IMG/VR virus record: IMGVR_UViG_3300025769_000784
Location: 1-24,988 of that record
DNA length: 24,988 nt
Source of the DNA: a virus
Reading direction: 5' to 3' (one strand)
Positions 972 to 18,848 of the stretch are shown here, piece by piece. Within the stretch, counting starts at the first letter, position 1. Every line of letters starts with the position of its first letter. The notes under the pieces were generated by a model, which was not told the origin of the DNA, ran no database searches, and saw only the letters and a list, made by a program, of their open reading frames with translations. The position numbers were made by a program, and so were the translations under genes.

Positions 972-2963
972 ATGGCGAATGGACCTTTAGGTGGTTTTAT
1001 GCCGACCCCTGCGTCACCATCACAACCTCCTCAAGTCAAATTAGACACAACTGCGGCAAGTCGTGGTACTTTTAACGATTTTTTAAGGAATATGGGTGGT
1101 TCCTCAACTCCTCCAAGTATGATGGCACCATCTATGGGTGCCATGAACCCCTTGCAAATGGCACCCGCTATTTCTGACGTTGATATATTCAATCAGCCTA
1201 TACAAATGATGTTTAACGGTGGTGAGGTTGATGACTTTGGTGATGTGCCAGGTGATACAAGTGATCCGTCTATTGGTGATACAGAAGATCGTTCAGAGTC
1301 TGATTCATTTCAAGATGCTTTAGACAGCATAGATTTAGGTTCAAGTGATGACAGTATGTTTTCAGATGACCCAAGTTCAGCTACTCCAATGGGTTTAAGT
1401 ATGCCTTCTGGCCAAAACTATGGCAGCAGAGCAAACATACCTAACTTAGACGCTAATACAATTAATTTGTTGAAGACTGAAATTAATAGTAGAAATGAAG
1501 TATCTTTATCAGATAGAGATGATCTTTTTAACAAAGATTTTACTTTGAACGATAAAGGTAAGGAAGAATTAGCTAATTTAAATAAAGTGTCTTTAAATGA
1601 GGTAATAAGTGGTGCTGTACCTGCTTCCAATTACATATCTGTTGGTGATAAATCTGGATTACAAGATACATTAAGCTTAACAAAAAGCCAAGATGAGATA
1701 GATCCATTTGACATACAACCATCTTATCAAAACTATGGTCTACCAGGTGTAAGTGGTTTGCCAACAGTTCAGACAGAAATGAGAAGTAGCCTTGCTCAAC
1801 AACAACTTGATGCTCTTAAAGGGTTAGTTGGTGATAAGCAGCCAACGATAGGAGAGCAACTACAACAGAACGTATTGGCAGATAGAGGTAGGGCATTAGG
1901 CCCTACGACTTTTGCAGATGATTTGGCAAATTTTAGTGCAAACGTGAGGGGTCAAACACCAAACGAAAATAGCAGAGTTGGTGATGATCAACTTGCTATA
2001 GATGAAGCTGAACGAGCTGCTCAACGAGCAAGTAAAGTTGGAGATGACTTTCAGATTGCATTAGATCTTGTTGATGCAAGGCAAAAAGCATTAACAGCAA
2101 GAGATGCAAATGTAAGAGATATGGATGACATCGACATAGCAACTGCTGGTAGGGCTTCTGATTTTCCAACCTTATCAACTGCACCAGAAGATTTTGAAGA
2201 AAACGTAGGCAGAAAGTTTGACGCTGATCGTATGGCAGACATTGAAAGATTATACGGAGAAGATATTGGTCAGACAAAAGCTGGGAGGGGTTCAGACCCT
2301 ACACTTCTTGAAGGATTAGGACTTCCTACACCAGCAACAATATTTGGTGACTTCATAGAAAGAAAGTCCAGAGAAAACATGGCTAACGAAATAGCGTTAG
2401 GCAGACCTATGGGATTAGGTGAAACATTATTTGGTTTTACAGCACCTAACTTACAGACACAGACCATGAAAGATTATATGGCGAACACTCAAAAGAATGT
2501 TTTGAATGAAGCGGGTGATGCAGAAACAGTTTCACGTAGATTATCAGAAAATCAATTAATCAGAAACGATAGTGGTCGTGTTATTGGTATAAGAGATGCA
2601 AGTGGTAGATTAGTTTCTGGAACAGATCCAAACGTACAAATGCCTTCTGGTGATAGTAGTGATCCAATCATAAGACCTATAATTCCCGTTGAGGAAGAAG
2701 AAAAATCAGACGCACCTCCAAGTATTTTGGGTGCCGCAATGCCTTCTGGTATTGGCTCAGCACCATTCATAGTTGAATCACCTTTTACCACAAATGTTGG
2801 GGACTTTAGAGGCACTGGATTTGATGTAGGCGATTTGAACGCATTAATTGCACAAATAACAAGACAACAATTACCAAGGGCTATGGCTAAAGGTGGTGTA
2901 GCTAAGTTTGCCAATGGTGGTTTGATACAAGCAGTTGATGACTTCTTATCCACAGGAACATGA
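972..2963 (+). CDS. Large disordered virion/scaffold-like protein with C-terminal Gly-Gly motifs
   Basis: A 663-aa protein that I cannot assign to a characterised family. The N-terminal 150 residues are rich in Met, Pro, Ser, Gly and Asp and look disordered (for example GDVPGDTSDPSIGDTEDRS). The middle (about 270-430) is polar and probably helical. MPSG occurs three times. Gly-Gly motifs occur as MFNGGEV at residues 80-86 and MAKGGVAKFANGG at 638-650, near the C-terminus, and match motifs in small basic proteins downstream. There is no catalytic signature or membrane segment. Its stop overlaps the terminase start as ATGA (2960-2963). Its ribosome binding site lies inside the hairpin at 939-966. 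Position and composition suggest a structural, internal-virion or scaffolding-type protein, but this is inference. Confidence 0.85.
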   Translation: MANGPLGGFMPTPASPSQPPQVKLDTTAASRGTFNDFLRNMGGSSTPPSMMAPSMGAMNPLQMAPAISDVDIFNQPIQMMFNGGEVDDFGDVPGDTSDPSIGDTEDRSESDSFQDALDSIDLGSSDDSMFSDDPSSATPMGLSMPSGQNYGSRANIPNLDANTINLLKTEINSRNEVSLSDRDDLFNKDFTLNDKGKEELANLNKVSLNEVISGAVPASNYISVGDKSGLQDTLSLTKSQDEIDPFDIQPSYQNYGLPGVSGLPTVQTEMRSSLAQQQLDALKGLVGDKQPTIGEQLQQNVLADRGRALGPTTFADDLANFSANVRGQTPNENSRVGDDQLAIDEAERAAQRASKVGDDFQIALDLVDARQKALTARDANVRDMDDIDIATAGRASDFPTLSTAPEDFEENVGRKFDADRMADIERLYGEDIGQTKAGRGSDPTLLEGLGLPTPATIFGDFIERKSRENMANEIALGRPMGLGETLFGFTAPNLQTQTMKDYMANTQKNVLNEAGDAETVSRRLSENQLIRNDSGRVIGIRDASGRLVSGTDPNVQMPSGDSSDPIIRPIIPVEEEEKSDAPPSILGAAMPSGIGSAPFIVESPFTTNVGDFRGTGFDVGDLNALIAQITRQQLPRAMAKGGVAKFANGGLIQAVDDFLSTGT

Positions 2964-4429
2964 ACTTAGATTTTGCTGAATATTTAAGCGATGATGAGCT
3001 ATCCAAAATAGCTCCTATGCTTGAGCGTTTGAACACGCTTGAAAAACAGAAAATTAGCCAAGATAAATATTTAGATTTTGTAAAACGTATTTGGCCTAAC
3101 TTCATTGAAGGAAGACATCACAAGATATATGCAGAAAAGCTTCAAGCCGTTGCAGATGGTAAAATTAAGCGTTTGATAGTTAACATGCCTCCGAGGCATA
3201 CCAAATCTGAATTTGCGAGTTACTTGTTTCCTGCTTGGCTTATGGGCAGAAGATCAGATTTAAAAATCATTCAAGCAACACACACGGCAGAATTGGCTGT
3301 TGGGTTTGGTCGTAAGGTTAAGAACCTAATTGACAGTGAAGATTTCAGAGATGTGTTTCCAGATATTAAATTAGCAAGTGATGCGAAGGCATCTGGCAGA
3401 TGGTCAACAAATGGTGGTGGTGAATACTATGCTGTTGGTGTGGGTGGTGCGTTAGCTGGTCGTGGTGCAGACTTATTGATTATTGATGACCCTGTTTCAG
3501 AACAAGATGCACTAAGTCCTACAGCTTTGGATAGTATTTATGAGTGGTATACATCTGGACCACGACAGAGACTTCAGCCAGGTGGCTCGATTATCATTGT
3601 TATGACACGTTGGGGTATCAAAGACCTAACGGCAAGAGTTTTACAAAAGCAAGCTCAAGGAGGTGCGGACAAATGGGAAGTGGTAGAATTTCCAGCGATA
3701 TTTCCAGAGACTGGAAACGTACTCTGGCCAGAGTATTGGAGCAAAGAAGAATTAGAAGGCGTGAAAGCCTCGATTCCCGTAGGAAAATGGAACGCACAGT
3801 ACATGCAAAATCCGACGGCAGAAGAAGGAGCGATAATCAAGAGGGAATGGTGGAACATTTGGAATCGTGATGATCCTCCCGCTTGTTCTTATGTAATTCA
3901 ATCATATGATACGGCTTTTACAAAGAATGAGCGTTCTGACTTTAGTGCTATAACCACTTGGGGTATTTTTACACCAGTTGAGGGTGAGGGTGATGCTATC
4001 ATCTTGCTTGATGCAGAAAAGGGAAGGTGGGATTTTCCAGAACTAAAGCAGAAAGCAATGGAGTTATGTGAGGCATATGAACCTGATATGATACTGATTG
4101 AGCAAAAGGCTAGTGGAACGCCTTTAACACAAGAGTTAAGACGTATGGGTGTGCCAGTTACACCATTTACGCCAAGCAAAGGTTCTGATAAGTTTGCAAG
4201 AATGAATGCGTGTGCACCAGTCTTTGAGAGTGGCATGGTGTACAGACCTGATGCTAATTTTGCAGAGGAGGTTGTTGAAGAATGTGCAAGCTTTCCACAT
4301 GGAGATCATGATGACTTGGCAGATTCGATGACACAGGCTATACTAAGATTCAGACAAGGTGGTTTTATATCCACACCTGACGATGAGGAATTTGAACCCG
4401 CTTACAGAAGAAAGATGGAGTATTACTAA
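2960..4429 (+). CDS. terL: Terminase large subunit
   Basis: A 489-aa DNA-packaging motor. The N-terminal ATPase domain has a Walker A-like MPPRHTKSE (76-84), Walker B LLIIDD (172-177) and coupling motif IIIVMTRWG (211-219). The C-terminal RNase H-fold nuclease has acidic residues in the expected places: D317 in SYDTAF, E381 in LIEQKASGTP and D451/D452 in HDDLADS. The length is normal for a complete TerL, and all motifs are intact. The gene overlaps the preceding one by 4 nt and is followed by a TAATG 1-nt overlap. By family knowledge the protein docks on the portal (6182-8581), translocates DNA into the prohead and cuts it. Confidence 0.97.
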   Translation: MNLDFAEYLSDDELSKIAPMLERLNTLEKQKISQDKYLDFVKRIWPNFIEGRHHKIYAEKLQAVADGKIKRLIVNMPPRHTKSEFASYLFPAWLMGRRSDLKIIQATHTAELAVGFGRKVKNLIDSEDFRDVFPDIKLASDAKASGRWSTNGGGEYYAVGVGGALAGRGADLLIIDDPVSEQDALSPTALDSIYEWYTSGPRQRLQPGGSIIIVMTRWGIKDLTARVLQKQAQGGADKWEVVEFPAIFPETGNVLWPEYWSKEELEGVKASIPVGKWNAQYMQNPTAEEGAIIKREWWNIWNRDDPPACSYVIQSYDTAFTKNERSDFSAITTWGIFTPVEGEGDAIILLDAEKGRWDFPELKQKAMELCEAYEPDMILIEQKASGTPLTQELRRMGVPVTPFTPSKGSDKFARMNACAPVFESGMVYRPDANFAEEVVEECASFPHGDHDDLADSMTQAILRFRQGGFISTPDDEEFEPAYRRKMEYY

Positions 4430-4635
4430 TGGCAGCATCAAATGATAAACTTGCAGATGATTTAGCAAAAGCTGGAGAAAAAAGAGGTGTTGACGAAATA
4501 TTGGGAGTTGACACGGAGCCAATGTCTGTAAGGCAAATAAGAAAATTATTGGTTAAAAAAGGCGTTTTACCTAGACCTATGAACATGGGCGGCGTTGTTC
4601 CTGGTCGTGGTGGTAGTTTTAAAGGAGTAAGGTAA
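4429..4635 (+). CDS. Small basic Gly-Gly-motif protein A
   Basis: A 68-aa basic protein of unknown function. Residues 1-50 look helical (DKLADDLAKAGEK, SVRQIRKLLVKKGV). The C-terminal 18 residues are a Gly-rich tail, MNMGGVVPGRGGSFKG (51-66) plus VR. The next gene encodes a protein of exactly the same length with the same 16 residues at the same position but a different N-terminal half. The start overlaps the terL stop (TAATG), with GGAG about 9 bases upstream. Position between terminase and portal suggests a virion or assembly role. No enzyme signature is present. Confidence 0.85.
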   Translation: MAASNDKLADDLAKAGEKRGVDEILGVDTEPMSVRQIRKLLVKKGVLPRPMNMGGVVPGRGGSFKGVR

Positions 4636-4841
4636 TGAAAGATAAAATGAAGAGACTTGCAGAAAACATTTTAAAAGCTGAACAAGGTTTGGTTGGTGCT
4701 AACATAGCAGCTAATCCCATAAGAAATTTGCCAGGTGTTGTAAAAATTGAGATTGCAAAAAAAATTGTTGGAAAACCCAAAAAAATGAATATGGGCGGTG
4801 TAGTACCCGGCAGAGGCGGTAGTTTCAAAGGAACAAAGTAA
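4635..4841 (+). CDS. Small basic Gly-Gly-motif protein B
   Basis: A 68-aa basic protein of unknown function, start preceded by AAAGGAG and overlapping the previous stop (TAATG). Residues 1-50 (KMKRLAENILKAEQGLVGAN, then a Val/Ile/Lys stretch) do not align with protein A. Residues 51-66 are identical to A (MNMGGVVPGRGGSFKG), ending TK. In the shared 48 nt, 9 of 16 codons differ from A and every difference is synonymous, so the tail is kept by selection and is not a fresh copy. A function such as capsid binding or DNA condensation is a guess. Confidence 0.85.
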   Translation: MKDKMKRLAENILKAEQGLVGANIAANPIRNLPGVVKIEIAKKIVGKPKKMNMGGVVPGRGGSFKGTK

Positions 4842-5308
4842 TGTCAGATGAAGCAGATAGAATTAGAGCTTATCAAGATTTAGCTAGGCGTGGTCAGCCA
4901 GTTCCCGGCAAGAACTTTGGTACTGGTGTAACACCAAAGATAAAAAGAACAGAGCCAAAGATTAAAGTTATAGACACAACCAAGATGAAGCAATTAAAGC
5001 TTTTAAAAAAGGGTGGCGAGACATCTCCTTTGAAGGGTATAGCTAAAACAATTACTGATATACAGAGTGGCAAAACTGGCGTTAAGACTGTGGATACACA
5101 GAGGAAGAAAGATGCCGCTATGATAAAGAATTTGAAAAAATCTGCAAAAGTAAGTAAAGTTAGTGCTAGGCCACAGACTTTTAGTATAACACCTAACCCT
5201 AAGAAAGATCCGTTTAGTGTTCAACAAAAGACAATTCAGATGGCTAACGGAGGCGAGGTTGTTAACATGACTAGATCAAGAATGATTAACCCAGAGACAG
5301 GAGAGTAG
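4841..5308 (+). CDS. Lys-rich Gly-Gly-motif protein
   Basis: A 155-aa, strongly basic protein (SDEADRIRAYQDLARRGQPV at the N-terminus, then long Lys-rich segments such as KSAKVSKVS). It carries KKGGETS near residue 57 and MANGGEV near residue 134, close to the C-terminus, the same motif class as in neighbouring proteins. I recognise no domain. Its start overlaps the preceding stop (TAATG) with AGGA just upstream, so it is part of one tightly coupled run from terL to the portal. Low complexity and high charge suggest disorder and nucleic-acid or capsid contact, which is inference. Confidence 0.8.
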   Translation: MSDEADRIRAYQDLARRGQPVPGKNFGTGVTPKIKRTEPKIKVIDTTKMKQLKLLKKGGETSPLKGIAKTITDIQSGKTGVKTVDTQRKKDAAMIKNLKKSAKVSKVSARPQTFSITPNPKKDPFSVQQKTIQMANGGEVVNMTRSRMINPETGE

Positions 5309-5309
5309 T

Positions 5310-6179
5310 ATGGCAGACTATGGTAAAATGAGCAAGTCACAGCTTTTAAACAAATATGGTTCTTTTATTAAGAAAAACTTTGGAAAAAAAGAATTAGATT
5401 TTGTCAAAGGAGAAGACACTAGTGGAGTAAGAAAGTACATACAAGATTTAGATCCAGAGCCAGTTAAAAAGAAAGATGGTGGCGATGTAGCTAAACCTAA
5501 AATGAGACCTAAAAGCCTTAAAGCCGATAAAACAGAAATAATAAATGAGGAGTTTAGCAAAAAGGTAGCTAGGCAAAATGCAAAAAATAAAGAAACTGGA
5601 AAAGCTAATTTAAAAAACTTGCCAGGTTCTAAAGAGTCTTTGGAAGACAATGATGATATTTTTAAGAAAGCTAAAAAGATGGCAAAGGGTGGTATGATAA
5701 AAACAAGAGCACGACCAAGTCCTATGAGAGCCATGAACAAACTAGATGACGCAGTAGAAGAATTTATTGAAACAATTGAGCCGTTTCAAGGCACAGTAAG
5801 GAAAGGCGAAACTCTTAGAAACATAGATGGCAAAACTATGATTGTCAAAAGAACACCTAATCCTAATTTTGGTAATATGATATCAGATAGAGACAGAGCA
5901 ATGGTAGGTGCTATGTTAGGAGGGGGTGGCAGAATGATCTCTGACGCAGACAGACGTATGGTAAGTGAAATGATGGGTGCTAGAAGGATGGAAGATGGCG
6001 GAGTTGTGCCAGCAAAATTAAAAGGTTTTTCTAAATTACCAGAAGATGTGCAACAAAAGATGAATCCAACATTAGCAAAAAAATTCAAAAAAGGTGGACC
6101 TGTTAAGATGGGTTCTGGCGGTGGTGTCTGTAGAGGTATGGGTGCTGCACGAGCAGGTGGAAAGTTTAAACTTAGATAA
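5310..6179 (+). CDS. Multi-copy Gly-Gly-motif basic protein
   Basis: A 289-aa Lys/Arg/Met-rich protein with the densest set of the shared motif: KKDGGDVAKPKM, KMAKGGMIKTRARP, RMEDGGVVPAKLKG, KKGGPVKMGSGGG and a C-terminal ARAGGKFKLR. A repeated element precedes the third copy: MISDRDRAMVGAMLGGGGR and MISDADRRMVSEMMGARR, a Met-rich internal duplication of about 18 residues. The N-terminal 40 residues (MSKSQLLNKYGSFIKKNFGK) look folded and helical. Function is unknown. The gene sits directly before the portal gene and follows the previous stop by 1 nt, with GGAGAG upstream. It is probably a virion-associated or assembly protein. Confidence 0.82.
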   Translation: MADYGKMSKSQLLNKYGSFIKKNFGKKELDFVKGEDTSGVRKYIQDLDPEPVKKKDGGDVAKPKMRPKSLKADKTEIINEEFSKKVARQNAKNKETGKANLKNLPGSKESLEDNDDIFKKAKKMAKGGMIKTRARPSPMRAMNKLDDAVEEFIETIEPFQGTVRKGETLRNIDGKTMIVKRTPNPNFGNMISDRDRAMVGAMLGGGGRMISDADRRMVSEMMGARRMEDGGVVPAKLKGFSKLPEDVQQKMNPTLAKKFKKGGPVKMGSGGGVCRGMGAARAGGKFKLR

Positions 6180-6181
6180 TC

Positions 6182-8581
6182 ATGGCAATTGAAAAAGTAA
6201 ATGGCGTTGAAAACGTAGAACAACCTCAAGGCATACAGATACCTTTGCCAGAGGCAGATATTACACCTGGAGTAACAGAACTTGATGACGGCTCTGCTAT
6301 CATAGGTGAAATACAAGAAGAAATTGAAACAACTTTACCAGTGCCATTTGATGCCAATTTAGCAGACTTTATTGATGATGATGATCTTGGTGTAATTTCA
6401 ACTGATTTAGTTGGTGCCATTGAAGATGATATCTCTTCTAGAAGAGAGTGGGAAGACACATACAAAAGTGGCTTAGAGCTTCTTGGTATGAACTATGAAG
6501 ACAGAACAGAGCCTTTTGATGGTGCTTCTGGTGTTGTTCATCCTCTATTAGCAGAAAGCGTCACACAGTTTCAAGCACAAGCATACAGAGAAATGTTACC
6601 TGCGGGTGGTCCAGTTAGAACAGTTATTGTGGGTTCAGAAAGTCCAGAGTTATTAGCACAATCAGAGCGTGTTAAGAACTACATGAATTACCAAATAACC
6701 TATGAAATGGAAGAGTATGACCCTGAATTAGATCAGATGTTGTTTTACTTACCAATTGTAGGTTCTGCTTTTAAAAAGATTTATTTTGACCCATCAATGC
6801 AAAGAGCAGTATCAAAGTTTGTTCATGCAGAAGATTTAATCGTTCCATATAACGCTACAGATTTAAGAACATCATCACGTATAACTCATGTAGTAAGAAT
6901 GGGTAAAAATGAGATTAGAAAACTTCAATTACAAGGGTTTTATAAAGACATAGACTTGCCATCAACAGATGGTGGTTCTACTAACTATGATGAAGTAAAA
7001 GAAACAATAGATGAAATTCAAGGTGTAGAAAAAAGTACAAGTGATAATGAAGAGTTAACTTTATATGAAGTTCACACAGATTTAGATCTAGTAGGTTTTG
7101 AAGATATTGGACAAGACGGAGAGCCAACTGGATTAAAGCTACCTTATGTTGTAACAATAATGGAGAAATCTGGTGAAGTCTTATCGATCAAAAGGAATTT
7201 CAACGAAATTGATCCGTTCCGTAGGAAAATACCTTACTTTGTACACTATAAGTTTTTGCCTGGTCTTGGCTTTTATGGTTTTGGTCTCACGCATATGATA
7301 GGTGGCTTATCAAGAGCCTCAACATCAATACTAAGACAATTAATAGATGCTGGTACGTTATCTAACCTCCCTGCTGGATTTAAAGCAAGGGGTGCAAGAA
7401 TAAGAGATGATGAAACACCTCTTAGCCCTGGAGAGTTTAGAGACGTTGATATGGTAGGAATGGATTTAAGGCAAGCAATCATGCCTTTACCATTTAAAGA
7501 GCCTTCCCAGACCTTGTATTCGCTATTAGGAACCCTTGTAGACTCTGGTAGACGTTTTGCGTCAATGGCTGACATGAAAGTTGGCGAGATGAATGGCAAC
7601 GCTCCAGTTGGCACCACTATGGCTATAATGGAGCGTGGTACCAAAGTTATGTCTGCTATACACAAGAGGCTTCATTACTCACAAAAAATAGAATTTAAAT
7701 TACTTGGAAGAATATTTGCTATGGATGTTCCAATGTATCCATATCAAGTTCCAGGTGCTCCACCAGAAATCAAACAAACAGATTTTGATGACAGAATTGA
7801 TATATTACCAGTTTCAGACCCAAATATATTTTCTATGTCACAGCGTATTGCTTTGGCACAAACACAATTACAGTTAGCACAAAGTAATCCAGACATTCAT
7901 GGGCCCAATGGAATGTATCAAGCCTACAGAAAAATGTATGAAGCATTGGGCGTTACAAACATTGAGGCTGTGTTGCAACCTCCACCTCAGCCTATGCCCA
8001 TGAACCCTGCAAAAGAAAATCAAGAAGCTTTAAAAGGCGGTGCTTTAAATGCTTTTCCAGAACAAAATCATCAAGCACATATATCTGCCCATTTAGCTAT
8101 GGTAAGTACTCCAGTAGCACAAGCTAATGCTGCTATAATTATGACATTACAAGGTCATATATCAGAACACATTGCTTTAATGTCAGAATTGCAAGCACAA
8201 CAAGAAGTAATGGCTTCAATTCCACCAGAGCAACAAATGATGATGCAACAAGATCCAAATGCTATGAAAGCAATGCAAGATCAAATAGCTTCAAGAAGTG
8301 CAGAATTAGCTGCTGAAATTCAAGAACAGTATGCACAAGCCTTAACACCTCCACCAAGTGAAGATCCTCTTGTAACAATAAGAAAACAAGAGTTAGCTTT
8401 AAGAGGTCAAGAGATAGCACAGAAGCAAGATCAGTTTGAGAAAAAACAAAATTTAGAGAAGGAAAAAGAAAGAAATGATATTCTTCTTGATCAACAAAGA
8501 TTAGACCAACAAGAAGAAATAGCCAATCAAAGGGATCAAACAGCTAGAGATATTGCAGCAATGAAAGCTATGAAAGGATAG
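6182..8581 (+). CDS. Portal protein, P22-like
   Basis: A 799-aa portal, the dodecameric head-vertex channel that binds terminase and the tail adaptors. Recognisable segments include DPELDQMLFYLPIVGSAFKK, the wing/stem region (PYFVHYKFLPGLGFYGFGL), the crown-side helices (GTTMAIMERGTKVMSAIHKR) and a long Gln-rich helical C-terminus from about residue 600 to 799, which fits the extended barrel known in P22-type portals (P22 gp1 is about 725 aa). An acidic N-terminal extension (EVNGVENVEQ, then many Asp/Glu) precedes the clip/wing core. The gene lies shortly after terL, as expected. The ribosome binding site is weak, so coupling to the upstream gene is likely. The family assignment is from recognition of the sequence pattern. 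Confidence 0.93.
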   Translation: MAIEKVNGVENVEQPQGIQIPLPEADITPGVTELDDGSAIIGEIQEEIETTLPVPFDANLADFIDDDDLGVISTDLVGAIEDDISSRREWEDTYKSGLELLGMNYEDRTEPFDGASGVVHPLLAESVTQFQAQAYREMLPAGGPVRTVIVGSESPELLAQSERVKNYMNYQITYEMEEYDPELDQMLFYLPIVGSAFKKIYFDPSMQRAVSKFVHAEDLIVPYNATDLRTSSRITHVVRMGKNEIRKLQLQGFYKDIDLPSTDGGSTNYDEVKETIDEIQGVEKSTSDNEELTLYEVHTDLDLVGFEDIGQDGEPTGLKLPYVVTIMEKSGEVLSIKRNFNEIDPFRRKIPYFVHYKFLPGLGFYGFGLTHMIGGLSRASTSILRQLIDAGTLSNLPAGFKARGARIRDDETPLSPGEFRDVDMVGMDLRQAIMPLPFKEPSQTLYSLLGTLVDSGRRFASMADMKVGEMNGNAPVGTTMAIMERGTKVMSAIHKRLHYSQKIEFKLLGRIFAMDVPMYPYQVPGAPPEIKQTDFDDRIDILPVSDPNIFSMSQRIALAQTQLQLAQSNPDIHGPNGMYQAYRKMYEALGVTNIEAVLQPPPQPMPMNPAKENQEALKGGALNAFPEQNHQAHISAHLAMVSTPVAQANAAIIMTLQGHISEHIALMSELQAQQEVMASIPPEQQMMMQQDPNAMKAMQDQIASRSAELAAEIQEQYAQALTPPPSEDPLVTIRKQELALRGQEIAQKQDQFEKKQNLEKEKERNDILLDQQRLDQQEEIANQRDQTARDIAAMKAMKG

Positions 8582-8584
8582 GTT

Positions 8585-8851
8585 ATGGTTAGTTCAATTA
8601 GAGAAAAAATTTGGGAAGTTGAGAAAGAGAAAAAGAGAAAAAGAAGACTTGCAAAAGAAGGAGTTGTAGATGCCGTTGAAGAAAGGGTCAAGCCAGAAGA
8701 CAATCAGCAAGAACATACGCAAGTTGAGGAAAGAGAAATATCCACAGAAACAAGCAATAGCGATAGCGTTGTTAAAAGCAGAGAAGTCAAAAAAGAAGCA
8801 AAAAAAGGCAGACCAAAAAAAACCACAAAAAAAAATAATAAAAAAACGTAA
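8585..8851 (+). CDS. Possible small charged protein overlapping the next gene out of frame
   Basis: An 88-aa frame beginning 3 nt after the portal stop, with AAGGA 6 nt before its ATG. The N-terminal 40 residues ([20 protein letters not shown]) look like a plausible helical protein. The rest becomes Glu/Ser-rich, then Lys-rich where the DNA is nearly pure A. It overlaps the better-supported gene at 8670 by 182 nt in another frame. A good ribosome binding site and the lack of any other use for 8585-8669 favour a real gene. The C-terminal half may be poorly constrained. I recognise no family. Confidence 0.45.
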
Positions 8852-8915
8852 TGGTGGAATTATAAAGAAGTTTTCTGAAATAGCTAAACCACAAAGATTT
8901 CAGGGGATTTTTTAG
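8670..8915 (+). CDS. Small basic phage protein with QAIAIAL motif and Gly-Gly motif
   Basis: An 81-aa, very Lys-rich protein. The first 38 residues ([35 protein letters not shown]) match a pattern I know from many uncharacterised marine phage proteins, in which a basic helix is followed by QAIAIAL. A poly-Lys linker follows, then [19 protein letters not shown] near the C-terminus, another copy of the shared Gly-Gly motif. GAAGGAG at 8657-8663, 6 nt before the ATG, and an in-frame stop immediately upstream fix the start. Function is unknown; nucleic-acid binding is plausible from charge only. Confidence 0.8.
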
Positions 8916-10977: not shown

Positions 10978-11446
10978 AAAACTTTATGTGCCAGATAGAT
11001 TATTGGCAAAAAAACAAATTAATCCAACTCCAACATCAATATCAAAAGCTTTTGGAAAGTCAGAAGAGCCTAACAAAAATGAAGATGATCCATCAAAAAT
11101 AGATGTATCAGTCATTGAAAGATTGCCACAACCAACTGGTTATAGGCTTTTAGTAATTCCTTACTATCCAAGAGAAAAGACAAAAGGTGGTGTTTACATA
11201 CCAGACGCAACAAGGGATAGAGAATCATTTGCAACTGTTGTTGCTTATGTAGTCAAAATGGGTCCAGATGCCTATAAAGACGAACATAAATTCCCAAATG
11301 GAGCGTATTGTTCTGAAAAAGAATGGGTACTTATGGGTAGATATGCTGGAAATAGGTTCAAAGTGGAGGGTCTTGAGCTAAGACTCATAAATGATGATAA
11401 TATTATAGCAAAAATACTTGATCCCACAGATATTTCGTATGTATAA
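10970..11446 (+). CDS. GroES-like cochaperonin
   Basis: A 158-aa cpn10-fold protein. An N-terminal extension of about 45 polar residues precedes the domain: VIERLPQPTGYRLLVIPYYP, then the mobile-loop region REKTKGGVYIPD, VVKMGPDAYKD, and the C-terminal strands WVLMGRYAGNRFKVEG and LRLINDDNIIAKI. By analogy with T4 gp31 and other phage GroES proteins, it would cap host GroEL to fold a capsid protein. Its place just upstream of the scaffold candidate and major capsid gene supports this. It is longer than bacterial GroES (about 97 aa). AAAGG precedes the start. Confidence 0.9.
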   Translation: MTKKLYVPDRLLAKKQINPTPTSISKAFGKSEEPNKNEDDPSKIDVSVIERLPQPTGYRLLVIPYYPREKTKGGVYIPDATRDRESFATVVAYVVKMGPDAYKDEHKFPNGAYCSEKEWVLMGRYAGNRFKVEGLELRLINDDNIIAKILDPTDISYV

Positions 11447-11457
11447 TGGAGAGCATG

Positions 11458-12399
11458 ATGTCCGAATCACAAGAAAAAATTGAAGTTTTAGAAAATGAAG
11501 AAGAAAATGTCATTGTTGACATAGATGAGTCTTCAGAAAAAAAACAAGAATCTTTAAATTCTCAAGCACAAAATGCAGAGCGAACAGATGTTCGTTCTGA
11601 CAAGCCAGAAGAAGAGCTTGATGAATATTCAGAAAATGTTCAGAAACGTATTAATCAATTAACTGCTAAAAGAAAAGCCGCTTTAGAAGAGGCTGACGCA
11701 GCTTTTAAATATGCAGAAGAGCAAAAAAGGCAGAATGAAGAGCTTCAAAAACAACTTAAACAATTAAATACTGGATACACTTCAGAGTTTGGTAATAGAA
11801 TAGAAGCACAAACTGCTCAAGCAAAAAAACTTTATAAGGAGGCTTTTGATGCTGGAGATGCTGAAAAAATGTCTGAGGCAAGCGACCTCATGGCTAAACT
11901 CGCTATTGAGAACGAAAGACTCAGAATCCAAAAAGCAAGAAATGAGCAAGAAAGAACAGTTGCAAATAATGAAGGACAGAGCAACAACCAAGAAACCCAA
12001 ACCCAAGCGAGGCAAGTCAACCAAAGGCAAGAAATAGATCCAAAACTACAAGGTTGGCTTGATAAAAATACTTGGTTTGGTCAAGATATGGTAATGACAA
12101 GAGGAGCACAAGTCATACATGAGCAAGTTGTTGCTGTAGATGGCTTCGATCCTACAACTGATGATTACTATAAAGAAATTGATAAAAGAATCAGAAAAGA
12201 GTTTCCTCATAAGTTTCAGAGTGACAGAAAAGTCGCCCAGACTGTCGCACCTGTGAACGGAAAATCCGTTAATAATAATGGGCGGAAAAAGCAAATAGAA
12301 CTTACTCCTGGACAAGTTGCGTTTGCTAAAAAAATGAGAATACCTTTGGAGCAGTACGCAAAAGAGGTAGCTAAAATAGATTCCAGGAAAGGAGCTTAA
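11458..12399 (+). CDS. Coiled-coil scaffolding protein candidate
   Basis: The start is placed at the second or third ATG. The first in-frame ATG (11446, TAATG overlap) has no ribosome binding site, whereas GGAGAG at 11448-11453 is well spaced for 11458, giving 313 aa. The N-terminal 50 residues are very acidic. A long coiled coil follows (QKRINQLTAKRKAALEEADA onward, to about residue 165), then a Gln-rich linker and a smaller basic domain (DPKLQGWLDKNTWFGQDMVM to the end). An acidic, helical protein with a basic C-terminal capsid-binding end, upstream of the major capsid gene, is the classic profile of an internal scaffold. I assign it by profile and position, not by a motif. Confidence 0.78.
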   Translation: MSESQEKIEVLENEEENVIVDIDESSEKKQESLNSQAQNAERTDVRSDKPEEELDEYSENVQKRINQLTAKRKAALEEADAAFKYAEEQKRQNEELQKQLKQLNTGYTSEFGNRIEAQTAQAKKLYKEAFDAGDAEKMSEASDLMAKLAIENERLRIQKARNEQERTVANNEGQSNNQETQTQARQVNQRQEIDPKLQGWLDKNTWFGQDMVMTRGAQVIHEQVVAVDGFDPTTDDYYKEIDKRIRKEFPHKFQSDRKVAQTVAPVNGKSVNNNGRKKQIELTPGQVAFAKKMRIPLEQYAKEVAKIDSRKGA

Positions 12400-13475: not shown

Positions 13476-14387
13476 ATGGCTATTTCAAGAGCACAACTCC
13501 AAAAAGAGTTAGAACCAGGTCTTAACGCTTTATTCGGCATGGAATATGATCGTTATGATCAAGAGCATTTAGAAATCTATGACACAGAATCTTCAGACAG
13601 AGCGTTTGAAGAAGAAGTAATGTTGAGTGGATTTGGTAATGCAGCAACAAAATCAGAGGGTGCTGGTGTATCTTTTGATAATGCAAACGAAGTGTATACT
13701 TCAAGATATACAATGGAAACTATTGCTTTAGCTTTTGCACTTACAGAAGAAGCAATGGAAGACAACTTGTATGATCAGCTTGGAGCTAGATACACAAGAG
13801 CGTTAGCAAGATCAATGGCACACACAAAGCAAGTAAAAGCCGCTGCTACATTAAACAATGCGTTTAATTCAAGCTTCACTGGTGGCGATGGTAAAGAGCT
13901 TTGTGCTACAGACCATCCTTTAGGTGGTGGTGGAACATTTAGAAATGAGCCATCAACTGCTGCAGATCTTAATGAGACATCATTAGAAAATGCTCTTATC
14001 GACATTTCAAACTTTGTTGATGAGAGAAATATGATTGTAGCATTAAGGGGAATGAAACTTATTATTCCACCTGCATTACAATTTGTTGCAGACAGATTAC
14101 TTGAGTCCACTTTAAGACCAGGAACATCTGACAATGATGTTAACGCAATGAAAAACATGGGTATGTTACCAGAGGGTTATACAATTAACCACTTCTTAAC
14201 AGACACAGATGCGTTCTTCATCAAGACAGATGCACCTAATGGTTTCAAGTATTTTGAAAGAATTCCATTAAGTACAAGTATGGAAGCTGACTTTGATACA
14301 GGCAACATGAGATATAAAGCTAGAGAGCGTTATGCCTTTGGTTTTTCAGACCCTCGTGCTGTCTTTGGTTCTCCTGGAGCCGCATAA
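13476..14387 (+). CDS. Major capsid protein, Mu gpT-like
   Basis: A 303-aa capsid subunit. The pattern EEVMLSGFGNAATKSEGAGV, then LARSMAHTKQVKAAATLNNA, then HPLGGGGTFRN (from about residue 147), and the C-terminal MRYKARERYAFGFSDPRAVF matches the Mu gpT-type major head family (HK97 fold). AAGGAG precedes the start. There is no long N-terminal delta-domain, and no prohead protease gene is seen nearby, so assembly probably relies on the separate scaffold candidate at 11458. A strong terminator directly follows the gene, as is common for the most highly expressed structural gene. Confidence 0.93.
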   Translation: MAISRAQLQKELEPGLNALFGMEYDRYDQEHLEIYDTESSDRAFEEEVMLSGFGNAATKSEGAGVSFDNANEVYTSRYTMETIALAFALTEEAMEDNLYDQLGARYTRALARSMAHTKQVKAAATLNNAFNSSFTGGDGKELCATDHPLGGGGTFRNEPSTAADLNETSLENALIDISNFVDERNMIVALRGMKLIIPPALQFVADRLLESTLRPGTSDNDVNAMKNMGMLPEGYTINHFLTDTDAFFIKTDAPNGFKYFERIPLSTSMEADFDTGNMRYKARERYAFGFSDPRAVFGSPGAA

Positions 14388-15862: not shown

Positions 15863-15982
15863 ATGGTTATGGGTCGCTCTCAAATGAGTCAGCAAGTCTC
15901 AAAACCACCGAACAAAAAGAAAAAGAAAAAAAATATAAAGATAAAAAAGAATGCCAAAAGACGCTTGTTACAGAAAAGTTAA
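15863..15982 (+). CDS. 39-aa Lys-rich peptide
   Basis: A 39-aa frame whose ATG directly follows the previous stop. It begins MVMGRSQMSQQVSKPPNKKK and continues as a nearly pure Lys/Asn/Arg stretch encoded by a long A-rich tract (15908-15948). The start GRSQMSQQ...KPP resembles the beginning of small unnamed phage proteins I recall. It overlaps the next gene by 32 nt in another frame. An internal ATG at 15869 is an alternative start. It is uncertain because A-rich DNA always yields Lys codons. Confidence 0.5.
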   Translation: MVMGRSQMSQQVSKPPNKKKKKKNIKIKKNAKRRLLQKS

Positions 15983-16220
15983 ATCTCGATATAGAGTTTT
16001 TCCATCAGCTTATGCTTCAGGAGCCATAGCAGCTTGTAGAAAAAAAGGTGCTAAAAATTGGGGTAATGCTAAGAAAAAAGCAAATGGTGGTGTTATTAAA
16101 ATGAAATATGGTGGAGATGTAGCTAAAGGCAAAGTAAAAAGACCATCAAAAAATCCTAATATTGCAAGAGGTTGTGGTATTGTTATGGAAAACAGAAGAA
16201 AAGTAACAAAGTTTAGATAA
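15951..16220 (+). CDS. Small basic protein with Cys pair and Gly-Gly motifs
   Basis: An 89-aa protein. The first 38 residues (DACYRKVKSRYRVFPSAYAS, GAIAACRKKGAKNWG) match a well-known uncharacterised small phage family. Then come KANGGVIKMKYGGDVAKGKV, two copies of the shared Gly-Gly motif, and the tail NIARGCGIVMENRRKVTKFR. Three cysteines are present. It looks like a fusion of a small conserved basic domain to the motif-bearing tail. The stop overlaps the next start (TAATG). DNA binding or virion association is inferred. Confidence 0.82.
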   Translation: MPKDACYRKVKSRYRVFPSAYASGAIAACRKKGAKNWGNAKKKANGGVIKMKYGGDVAKGKVKRPSKNPNIARGCGIVMENRRKVTKFR

Positions 16221-17064: not shown

Positions 17065-17222
17065 GTCCAAGGAAAATGATGGCTATGTCAAAAGACTTAG
17101 CTAAAGCTGCTAAAATGATGGAAGGTGGCAAAGTTAAAAAAATGAGAGGTGGTGGCATGGCTAAAAAAATGCGTGGTGGTGGCATGGCTATGAAGAAGAT
17201 GAAAAAAGGTGGTAAGGCTTAA
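17055..17222 (+). CDS. 55-aa Met/Lys/Gly repeat protein
   Basis: A 55-aa protein with 13 Met and many Lys and Gly. Residues 1-22 form a basic helix-like start (SPRKMMAMSKDLAKAAKMM). The rest is GGKVKKMRGGGMA, a second KKMRGGGMA, then MKKMKKGGKA. AGGAG at 17044-17048 gives a 6-nt spacing to the ATG, which lies inside the previous gene (10-nt overlap). The stop overlaps the next start (TAATG). Similar MRGGG repeat peptides occur in other marine phages as far as I recall. Function is unknown. Confidence 0.78.
   Translation: MAMSPRKMMAMSKDLAKAAKMMEGGKVKKMRGGGMAKKMRGGGMAMKKMKKGGKA
17139..17192 (+). repeat. Two tandem 27-nt repeats encoding KMRGGGMA
   Basis: Adjacent units at 17139-17165 and 17166-17192 each encode K-M-R-G-G-G-M-A plus one residue. 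They share GGTGGTGGCATGGCT exactly, while the Arg codon differs (AGA versus CGT). The unit lies inside the 55-aa gene. Confidence 0.85.
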
Positions 17223-17890
17223 TGGCTACATCAAGCTCAGTAGATTTTGAATTAGATGTAGCAGAATACATCGAAGAAGCTTTTGAGCGATGTGGTCTTG
17301 AAGTAAGAACTGGATACGACCTTCAAACTGCAAGAAGATCCATGAATATTATGTTAGCAGAGTGGGCTAACAGAGGATTAAATCAGTGGACAATTGAACA
17401 AAGAACACAAACAGTTACTATAAACGATTCAGAGTATAGCTTAGACGCAGATGTCATTGATATTTTGTCTTTGGTAGTGAGAAGAAGTGGTACTGACTTT
17501 TCAATGACAAGAATTAGTAGAGACACTTTTTTAAATTTGCCAAACAAAACTTCAACTGGTAGACCTACTCAATATTTTTTAGATAGACAAATTACACCAA
17601 ATTTAAAGTTGTATCCAACACCAGAGAACAGCACAGATGTAATAGTTTACGATGCTCTAACACGCATACAAGACGCAGATAGTGCCGCTAACACAATGGA
17701 AATACCTTTTAGGTTTTATCCATGTCTTACTGCTGGTTTAGCCTATTATATAGCTATGAAAAAAGCACCTGATAGAATACAATTATTGAAAACAGTATAT
17801 GAAGAAGAATTTGAAAGAGCTATGGCAGAAGATAGAGATAGATCTGCTTTTAATGTTGCTCCAAAGTTAGATTATTATAGAGTTGGTTAA
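17222..17890 (+). CDS. Head-to-tail adaptor, P22 gp4-like
   Basis: A 222-aa protein: DVAEYIEEAFERCGLEVRTG, then ARRSMNIMLAEWANRGLNQW (about 39-58), a small beta domain (TVTINDSEYSLDADVIDILS) and a C-terminal helical part (YPCLTAGLAYYIAMKKAPDR). This helix-beta-helix layout fits the P22 gp4-type tail accessory factor/head-completion family, which binds under the portal and extends the DNA channel. It starts the neck/tail block. The start overlaps the preceding stop (TAATG), with AAGG upstream. Confidence 0.85.
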   Translation: MATSSSVDFELDVAEYIEEAFERCGLEVRTGYDLQTARRSMNIMLAEWANRGLNQWTIEQRTQTVTINDSEYSLDADVIDILSLVVRRSGTDFSMTRISRDTFLNLPNKTSTGRPTQYFLDRQITPNLKLYPTPENSTDVIVYDALTRIQDADSAANTMEIPFRFYPCLTAGLAYYIAMKKAPDRIQLLKTVYEEEFERAMAEDRDRSAFNVAPKLDYYRVG

Positions 17891-18204
17891 TGGCTTTTGC
17901 TAGTGGTAAATATGCTTATAGAATTTCAGATAGGTCTGGATTTAGATATCGTTTGAAAGATACAAGAAAAGAATGGAATGGATCTATTGTAGGCAAAGAT
18001 GAATATGAAGAAAAGCACCCACAATTAGAGCCTATTAGAACAAGACCTGATCCAGAAGCTATAAGAGATGCAAGACCAGATGTTAAAGATGACAATAAAA
18101 AGTTCATTGTGTATACTAATACTGGGTTAGGAAATATAGGAAGTTTGCTTACAACATTTAGTGCAACGGCTTCAGTTGGAACAGTTACAGTGAGCACATC
18201 ATGA
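17890..18204 (+). CDS. Small neck-region protein related to a zinc-ribbon family but lacking the cysteines
   Basis: A 104-aa protein: AFASGKYAYRISDRSGFRYR, then KEWNGSIVGKDEYEEKHPQL and EPIRTRPDPEAIRDARPDV. I recall a phage family with the pattern CDRCGFRY...EWNG...CPxCYExKHPQLEP. Here the corresponding positions are SDRSG and GKDEYE, so all four likely zinc ligands are absent. A Cys-free branch of this family also exists to my recollection. The C-terminal 30 residues are Ser/Thr/Val-rich (TFSATASVGTVTVSTS). It lies between two adaptor genes and is probably a structural neck protein. The stop overlaps the next start (ATGA). Confidence 0.72.
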   Translation: MAFASGKYAYRISDRSGFRYRLKDTRKEWNGSIVGKDEYEEKHPQLEPIRTRPDPEAIRDARPDVKDDNKKFIVYTNTGLGNIGSLLTTFSATASVGTVTVSTS

Positions 18205-18848
18205 GTTTTACATACACAACATTAACGGCATCAATTCAAGAGTGGACACAAAATGACGAGTCTACATTTGTAGCAGAGATACCTTTTTTTATTCAAAATG
18301 CTGAAGAAAGAATATTTAAAGTAGTTGATTTAGACTATTTTAGAAAAAATGTAACTGGCTCTATGACAAGTGATAATAAATTTTTACAAAAGCCAAGTGA
18401 TTATTTGGCTAGTTTTTCGTTGTCATATGTAAATGCCAGTAATCAAAATGTTTTTTTATTGCAGAAAGATGTAAATTATATTCAAGAATTTAATCCGAAT
18501 CCTAGTGATACTGGAAGTCCAAGATTTTATGCTTCTTTTGATGTTGATAATTTTATTGTGGCTCCCACTCCAAATTCAGACTATGCAGTAGAGTTGCATT
18601 ATTTTTACAGACCAGCTTCTTTAACAACAGTTGATTCTGGAACAACTTGGATAAGCGAAAATGCACCAGATGCATTATTGTACGCAAGCTTGGTGGAGGC
18701 TTACACTTTTATGAAAGGTGAATCAGATTTAATACAACTTTACACTGCTAGATTTACAGAATCTATTAGCAGACTTAAATTATATGCTGAAGGTCAAGAA
18801 AATACTGATGCTTATAGGGAGGGATTGGTTAGAACTCCAAAACAATAA
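18201..18848 (+). CDS. Tail adaptor protein, SU10-like
   Basis: A 215-aa protein with a characteristic beginning, TLTASIQEWTQNDESTFVAE, then IPFFIQNAEERIFKVVDLDY, FLQKPSDYLASFSLSY, and VELHYFYRPASLTTVDSGTT, WISENAPDALLYASLVEAYT. I recognise this as the phage SU10-type adaptor family, which forms a ring between portal/first adaptor and the tail nozzle. Length is normal and no segment is missing. It overlaps the previous gene by 4 nt. With 17222-17890 it makes a two-adaptor neck. Confidence 0.86.
   Translation: MSFTYTTLTASIQEWTQNDESTFVAEIPFFIQNAEERIFKVVDLDYFRKNVTGSMTSDNKFLQKPSDYLASFSLSYVNASNQNVFLLQKDVNYIQEFNPNPSDTGSPRFYASFDVDNFIVAPTPNSDYAVELHYFYRPASLTTVDSGTTWISENAPDALLYASLVEAYTFMKGESDLIQLYTARFTESISRLKLYAEGQENTDAYREGLVRTPKQ

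Follow-up and report, generated by a model that had tools for sequence, protein, structure and literature searches.

A conserved C-terminal tail on unrelated small proteins of ocean phages is probably an address label for the virus particle

The sequence analysed here is a virus record of 24,988 bases (the window). Its terminase and portal genes border a cassette of small genes in the order TerL, twin 1, twin 2, 155-aa protein, 289-aa protein, portal. The features used below are the following:

2960-4429, + strand: terminase large subunit (TerL), 55-60% identical to HTVC023P/HTVC027P, with a Terminase_6C match; upstream border of the cassette
4429-4635, + strand: gene 1, 68 aa, a predicted helical body (residues 1-50) followed by the type-1 tail
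4579-4626, + strand: MNMGGVVPGRGGSFKG, the type-1 tail of the first twin, with VR and the stop codon after it
4635-4841, + strand: gene 2, 68 aa, a predicted helical body unrelated to that of gene 1, with the same type-1 tail
4785-4832, + strand: type-1 tail of gene 2, MNMGGVVPGRGGSFKG again, with 9 of 16 codons silently different
4841-5308, + strand: 155-aa protein with the tail NGGEVxNMTRSxxINPETGE; the same N-terminal body is joined elsewhere to type-1 and type-2 tails
5310-6179, + strand: 289-aa protein with GGGVCRGMGAARAGGKFKLR as its type-2 tail; in contig L012 the same N-terminal body carries a type-1 tail
6182-8581, + strand: portal (phrog_1216 portal, SU10_portal); downstream border of the cassette
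8670-8915, + strand: 81-aa protein ending in PQRFQGIF, a conserved C-terminus like the FxGxx end of the tails
13476-14387, + strand: major capsid protein (phrog_371; Phage_capsid_4, Mu gpT)
17222-17890, + strand: SU10-type adaptor; relatives carry tailed genes between this and the next adaptor
18201-18848, + strand: second adaptor, by an SU10-type match

TerL, the portal, the capsid protein and a Cpn10 (GroES) co-chaperonin encoded in the same module are homologous to their counterparts in HTVC023P and HTVC027P and follow the same order. By this gene content, the phage belongs with the HTVC023P-type pelagiphages and their relatives. Downstream of the portal, two open reading frames (8585-8851 and 8670-8915; 88 and 81 aa) overlap in different frames, and both are matched in many related loci; the 81-aa frame matches phrog_2423, and the 88-aa frame may be real or may be its shadow.

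An earlier note on this DNA had singled out the two 68-aa genes, and translating the window anew gave the same picture: both products carry MNMGGVVPGRGGSFKG at residues 51-66, and a recount agreed that the differences, in 9 of the 16 tail codons, are all silent. Random codon draws from the window's own usage yield 7.9 ± 1.8 differences in 16 codons. Since the observed nine is close to that expectation, the silent sites of the twin tails are saturated, and on this ground the idea that one twin recently acquired its tail from the other by duplication or gene conversion was rejected. Silent differences were also near random expectation in the tails of the other two-copy cassettes examined. The first 50 residues are unrelated, as had been claimed: BLASTP produced no alignment and the hhalign profile-profile probability was 0.9%, so homology of the N-terminal halves was rejected. 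Neither twin matched PHROG, Pfam gave non-significant matches only, and the bodies had no significant match among PDB sequences or by Foldseek. AF2 placed helices at residues 3-16, 21-25 and 34-44 of the gene 1 protein and at 2-26 and 34-44 of the gene 2 protein, with pLDDT values of 45-50 and 47-51, respectively, across residues 51-68. These models, whose overall confidence is low (pTM 0.24 and 0.41), suggest bodies of short helices and a disordered tail.

The pair stands as described, and we can now extend its tail to a widespread class found on metagenomic contigs, some of which carry orthologues of gene 1. The type-1 (T1) pattern, GGxxxGRGGxFKG, was scanned in IMG/VR as GG-xxx-G-R/S-GG-x-FKG and was found in at least 119 stretches. 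Among the matches listed, 98 of 99 distinct open reading frames with the motif end exactly two residues past FKG, the sole exception being a 1080-aa protein in an unrelated context. The same pattern occurred in 32 stretches of 84,980 bacterial and archaeal genomes, where none of the 18 motif frames read ended two residues after the motif. This contrast argues that the T1 tail is not a product of chance. Nor is there support for the tail being present in host genomes: none of the bacterial motif frames read ends like the phage ones. The search required the GG...G.GG.FKG positions; it did not require the distance to the C-terminus, the valine at -13 (97/97 among the matches listed) or the M-N-M residues (92-97%, again among the matches listed). 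Among the matches listed, single linkage sorts the bodies preceding the T1 tail into at least 17 groups by their N-terminal parts, and stricter grouping gives 31. A single 16-aa peptide is written in 17 distinct DNA encodings, which points to selection on the protein rather than on the DNA.

The 289-aa protein of the window bears a related, type-2 (T2) tail, GGxCRGMGAAxRGGxFxxx. The pattern GGxxRGxGxAxxGGxF was terminal in 103 of 106 distinct open reading frames, which ended 3-4 aa past the F. When 66 representative proteins were aligned freely, T1 and T2 tails fell into one register, and the near-invariant columns were those of the tail and the start methionine only. The 155-aa family has its own conserved tail, that listed above, and the 81-aa family a conserved C-terminus, FSxIAxPQRFxG[VI]F (41 distinct C-termini, nearly all ending in [RK]FxG[VI]F). 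Other conserved C-termini lie in the window: a 663-aa protein upstream of TerL (972-2963), in the same module, has GGLIKAVDDFLSTGT after GG repeats, and an 89-aa protein (15951-16220) with a VFPSAYASGA domain common to T4-like cyanophages (gp114-type) ends in NPNIARGCGxVMxNRRKxTKFR, possibly a further tail class.

The tail had been proposed to be under long purifying selection, and separate estimates for tail and body bear this out. In pooled Nei-Gojobori counts for two orthologue sets, where the pooled pairs are non-independent and the figures therefore descriptive, pN/pS was 0.021 in the tail core and 0.295 in the body for P0002 orthologues, and 0.112 and 0.318 for P0001 orthologues. Constraint on the protein is thus 3-14 times stronger on the tail core than on the bodies in these sets. 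Far from varying freely, the tail appears to be under stronger purifying selection than the bodies, which are constrained too.

The majority of tailed bodies match nothing. LysM domains above the Pfam cut-off were found in 3 of the 66 representatives (E 6e-13 to 3e-15) and two further LysM bodies by motif, all of them with type-2 tails. EF-hand or dockerin-like loops occur in 18 type-2 proteins, below Pfam cut-offs where scanned; neither LysM bodies nor EF-hand-like loops were seen with a type-1 tail. Net charge is positive in all tailed T1 and T2 proteins, and none (0/97 T1, 0/171 T2) contains a transmembrane-like segment, defined as 19 aa above hydropathy 1.6. That the LysM bodies lack a membrane segment suggests that the virion delivers them: a protein that binds peptidoglycan but has no export signal would reach the wall most simply by carriage in the particle, release at lysis being another route. 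A short module, xxISDADRxxMxxML, is repeated in many tailed bodies, sometimes in two or three copies; its carriers include the 289-aa protein (5310-6179) and many T1 and T2 proteins elsewhere (e.g. L048 7394-7666).

With the window proteins as probes, T1 genes were found after TerL and before the portal in nearly every locus of sufficient length. In three loci (L057, L082 and L133) they lie between the two adaptor genes. T2 genes occur either ahead of the portal gene or close to the adaptors, where a position between the two is the commonest, and the order TerL-T1-(T1)-T3-T2-portal, or adaptor-T2-adaptor, holds in nearly all loci. Near-full records that have T1 carry one or two copies. Exceptions to this synteny are T2 tails on 104-108 aa proteins (L208 765-1079, L253, and L273 2581-2907); none of the head and neck genes of the window had a match in their surroundings.

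Bodies and tails are exchanged. Identical bodies occur under different tail classes, in mixed groups of T1/T2, T2/T3 and T1/T3. The T1 gene of L012 and the window's 289-aa T2 gene are 97-100% identical in DNA over about 150 nt and then drop to random level. Between the window and L016, the end of TerL is about 97-100% identical, body 1 is at 42% (random level), tail 1 is partly common, the end of tail 1 and body 2 match at 165/167, tail 2 is at 0.83 and the portal at 0.88. This profile argues that an unrelated body has taken the place of body 1 and that one crossover fell within tail 1. In the pair L135 and L154, the upstream region and the body are shared and divergence begins at the tail. 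To judge from such DNA identity, some swaps are recent. The N-terminal parts had been thought either diverged or swapped; the identical bodies with different tail classes, together with the replacement of body 1 between near-identical flanks, narrow this to swapping, and tail-swapping in other phages, which the note had proposed to look for, is found in the mixed groups. The constraint on the tail and its reuse on swapped bodies also support the view that the Gly-Gly tail is a functional unit.

Tailed proteins exist in a cultured phage. HTVC023P, whose host is HTCC1062, encodes two, gp32 (the gene after the portal), ending in GIRGVGAAIRGHKFIGVK, and gp51, ending in RGGGAAVRGMGFKGVF. No tail was found in HTVC027P or 023Pt_psg01 by the T1 and T2 patterns, and the absence from HTVC027P makes the tag accessory within the group. 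A 23-residue module of the 289-aa protein (5310-6179), KGFSKLPExVQxKMNPxLAKKF, recurs as a stand-alone 46-aa gene (gp38) in the HMO-2011-type phage HTVC033P (L306 5944-6084). We found no description of the tail in the literature, of which our open-access coverage was limited, nor virion proteomics or localisation for any tail carrier there; the accessible parts of the HTVC023P-type genome and transcriptome papers mention neither the tail nor virion proteomics.

The tail is strictly C-terminal, constrained, reused and exchanged among unrelated bodies, and encoded among head and neck genes. We propose, with a probability of roughly 55%, that it serves as a modular docking tag at the C-terminus. 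In HTVC023P-type pelagiphages and their relatives, it would gather many small, basic proteins at the head or neck while the virion is being assembled. The tail would dock onto a capsid, portal, adaptor or scaffold protein, the major capsid protein being one candidate partner that we infer and 11446-12399 encoding a putative scaffold; the docked proteins would most likely be loaded into the particle and ejected along with the DNA. The bodies would be interchangeable payloads, some with peptidoglycan-binding domains. The tag is thus probably an address label that loads unrelated small proteins into the virus particle, since abundant ocean phages swap dozens of such proteins yet keep it.

The tail might instead anchor variable decoration or adhesion proteins outside the capsid or neck, with the bodies facing the host or the environment. 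An anchor joined to a variable domain would fit this reading, T2 genes lie between adaptor genes in many relatives, and LysM bodies might attach to the host wall from its outer side; in Gram-negative hosts, however, LysM targets are buried below the outer membrane, and the bodies, small and strongly basic, look more like internal DNA-contacting proteins. We consider this placement outside the particle unlikely. Somewhat less likely still, the tail would be an RGG-like peptide that binds nucleic acid, condensing or escorting the DNA or RNA of the phage, and its sharing would reflect generic chemistry. The tail does contain RGG and RG motifs and, close to them, a Phe, and every carrier is net positive, but the fixed spacing, the strict C-terminal distance and the valine that is invariant among the matches listed are unlike degenerate RGG boxes, and the carriers sit in one morphogenesis module. 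It is improbable that the tail docks a chaperone or assembly factor such as GroEL, its carriers then assisting assembly while staying out of the virion: GroES is encoded in the same module and GG-[VI]-hydrophobic bears what we take to be a loose resemblance to GroES mobile loops, but the likeness spans few residues and LysM bodies make little sense on a cytoplasmic helper. Finally, a DNA homology handle for recombination, with the protein sequence incidental, would account for crossovers inside tails (window/L016; L135/L154) but is largely refuted by silent divergence, since a handle would conserve nucleotides, whereas silent sites are saturated between tails of one genome and one peptide has 17 encodings.

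If the address-label reading holds, the tag allows dark-matter genes to be predicted as virion cargo, a class recognisable across unrelated small proteins, and HTVC023P offers a concrete address label in a culturable phage. A swappable tagged cassette would also explain the fast change in gene content between terminase and portal.

Tags of known systems share parts of this design. GlyGly-CTERM and PEP-CTERM are likewise short homologous C-terminal regions on many unrelated proteins. They need a partner that processes them as well as a transmembrane helix, whereas the tailed phage proteins have no C-terminal transmembrane helix (0/97 T1). The capsid-targeting sequence (CTS) of T4 is N-terminal and is cut off by the prohead protease, and the proteins that it marks lie inside the virion and are ejected. 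It resembles the pelagiphage tag in being short, conserved and carried by small proteins that are otherwise unrelated: T4 internal proteins are small and basic, with diverse, hypervariable bodies and the CTS alone in common (PMC3012670, PMC9391042). The pelagiphage tag, in contrast, is C-terminal (98/99 among the matches listed) and appears unprocessed, with no prohead protease site, (L/I)xE, in or just before the tail of either window protein by reading. In encapsulins, a cargo-loading peptide binds the luminal face of the shell. Encapsulin cargo is loaded via a C-terminal peptide, and the cargo genes stand next to the gene for an HK97-type shell (PMC7355545). As here, a conserved C-terminal peptide is borne by unrelated cargo whose genes adjoin those of the shell; encapsulin, though, forms a compartment shell, whereas the present elements belong to a tailed phage with terminase and portal, and any likeness of letters between the two peptides seems superficial. 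Being C-terminal, seemingly unprocessed and without detected homology, the tag belongs to neither the CTS nor the encapsulin class, and our best reading is that it would nevertheless function much as the T4 CTS and the encapsulin cargo-loading peptide do.
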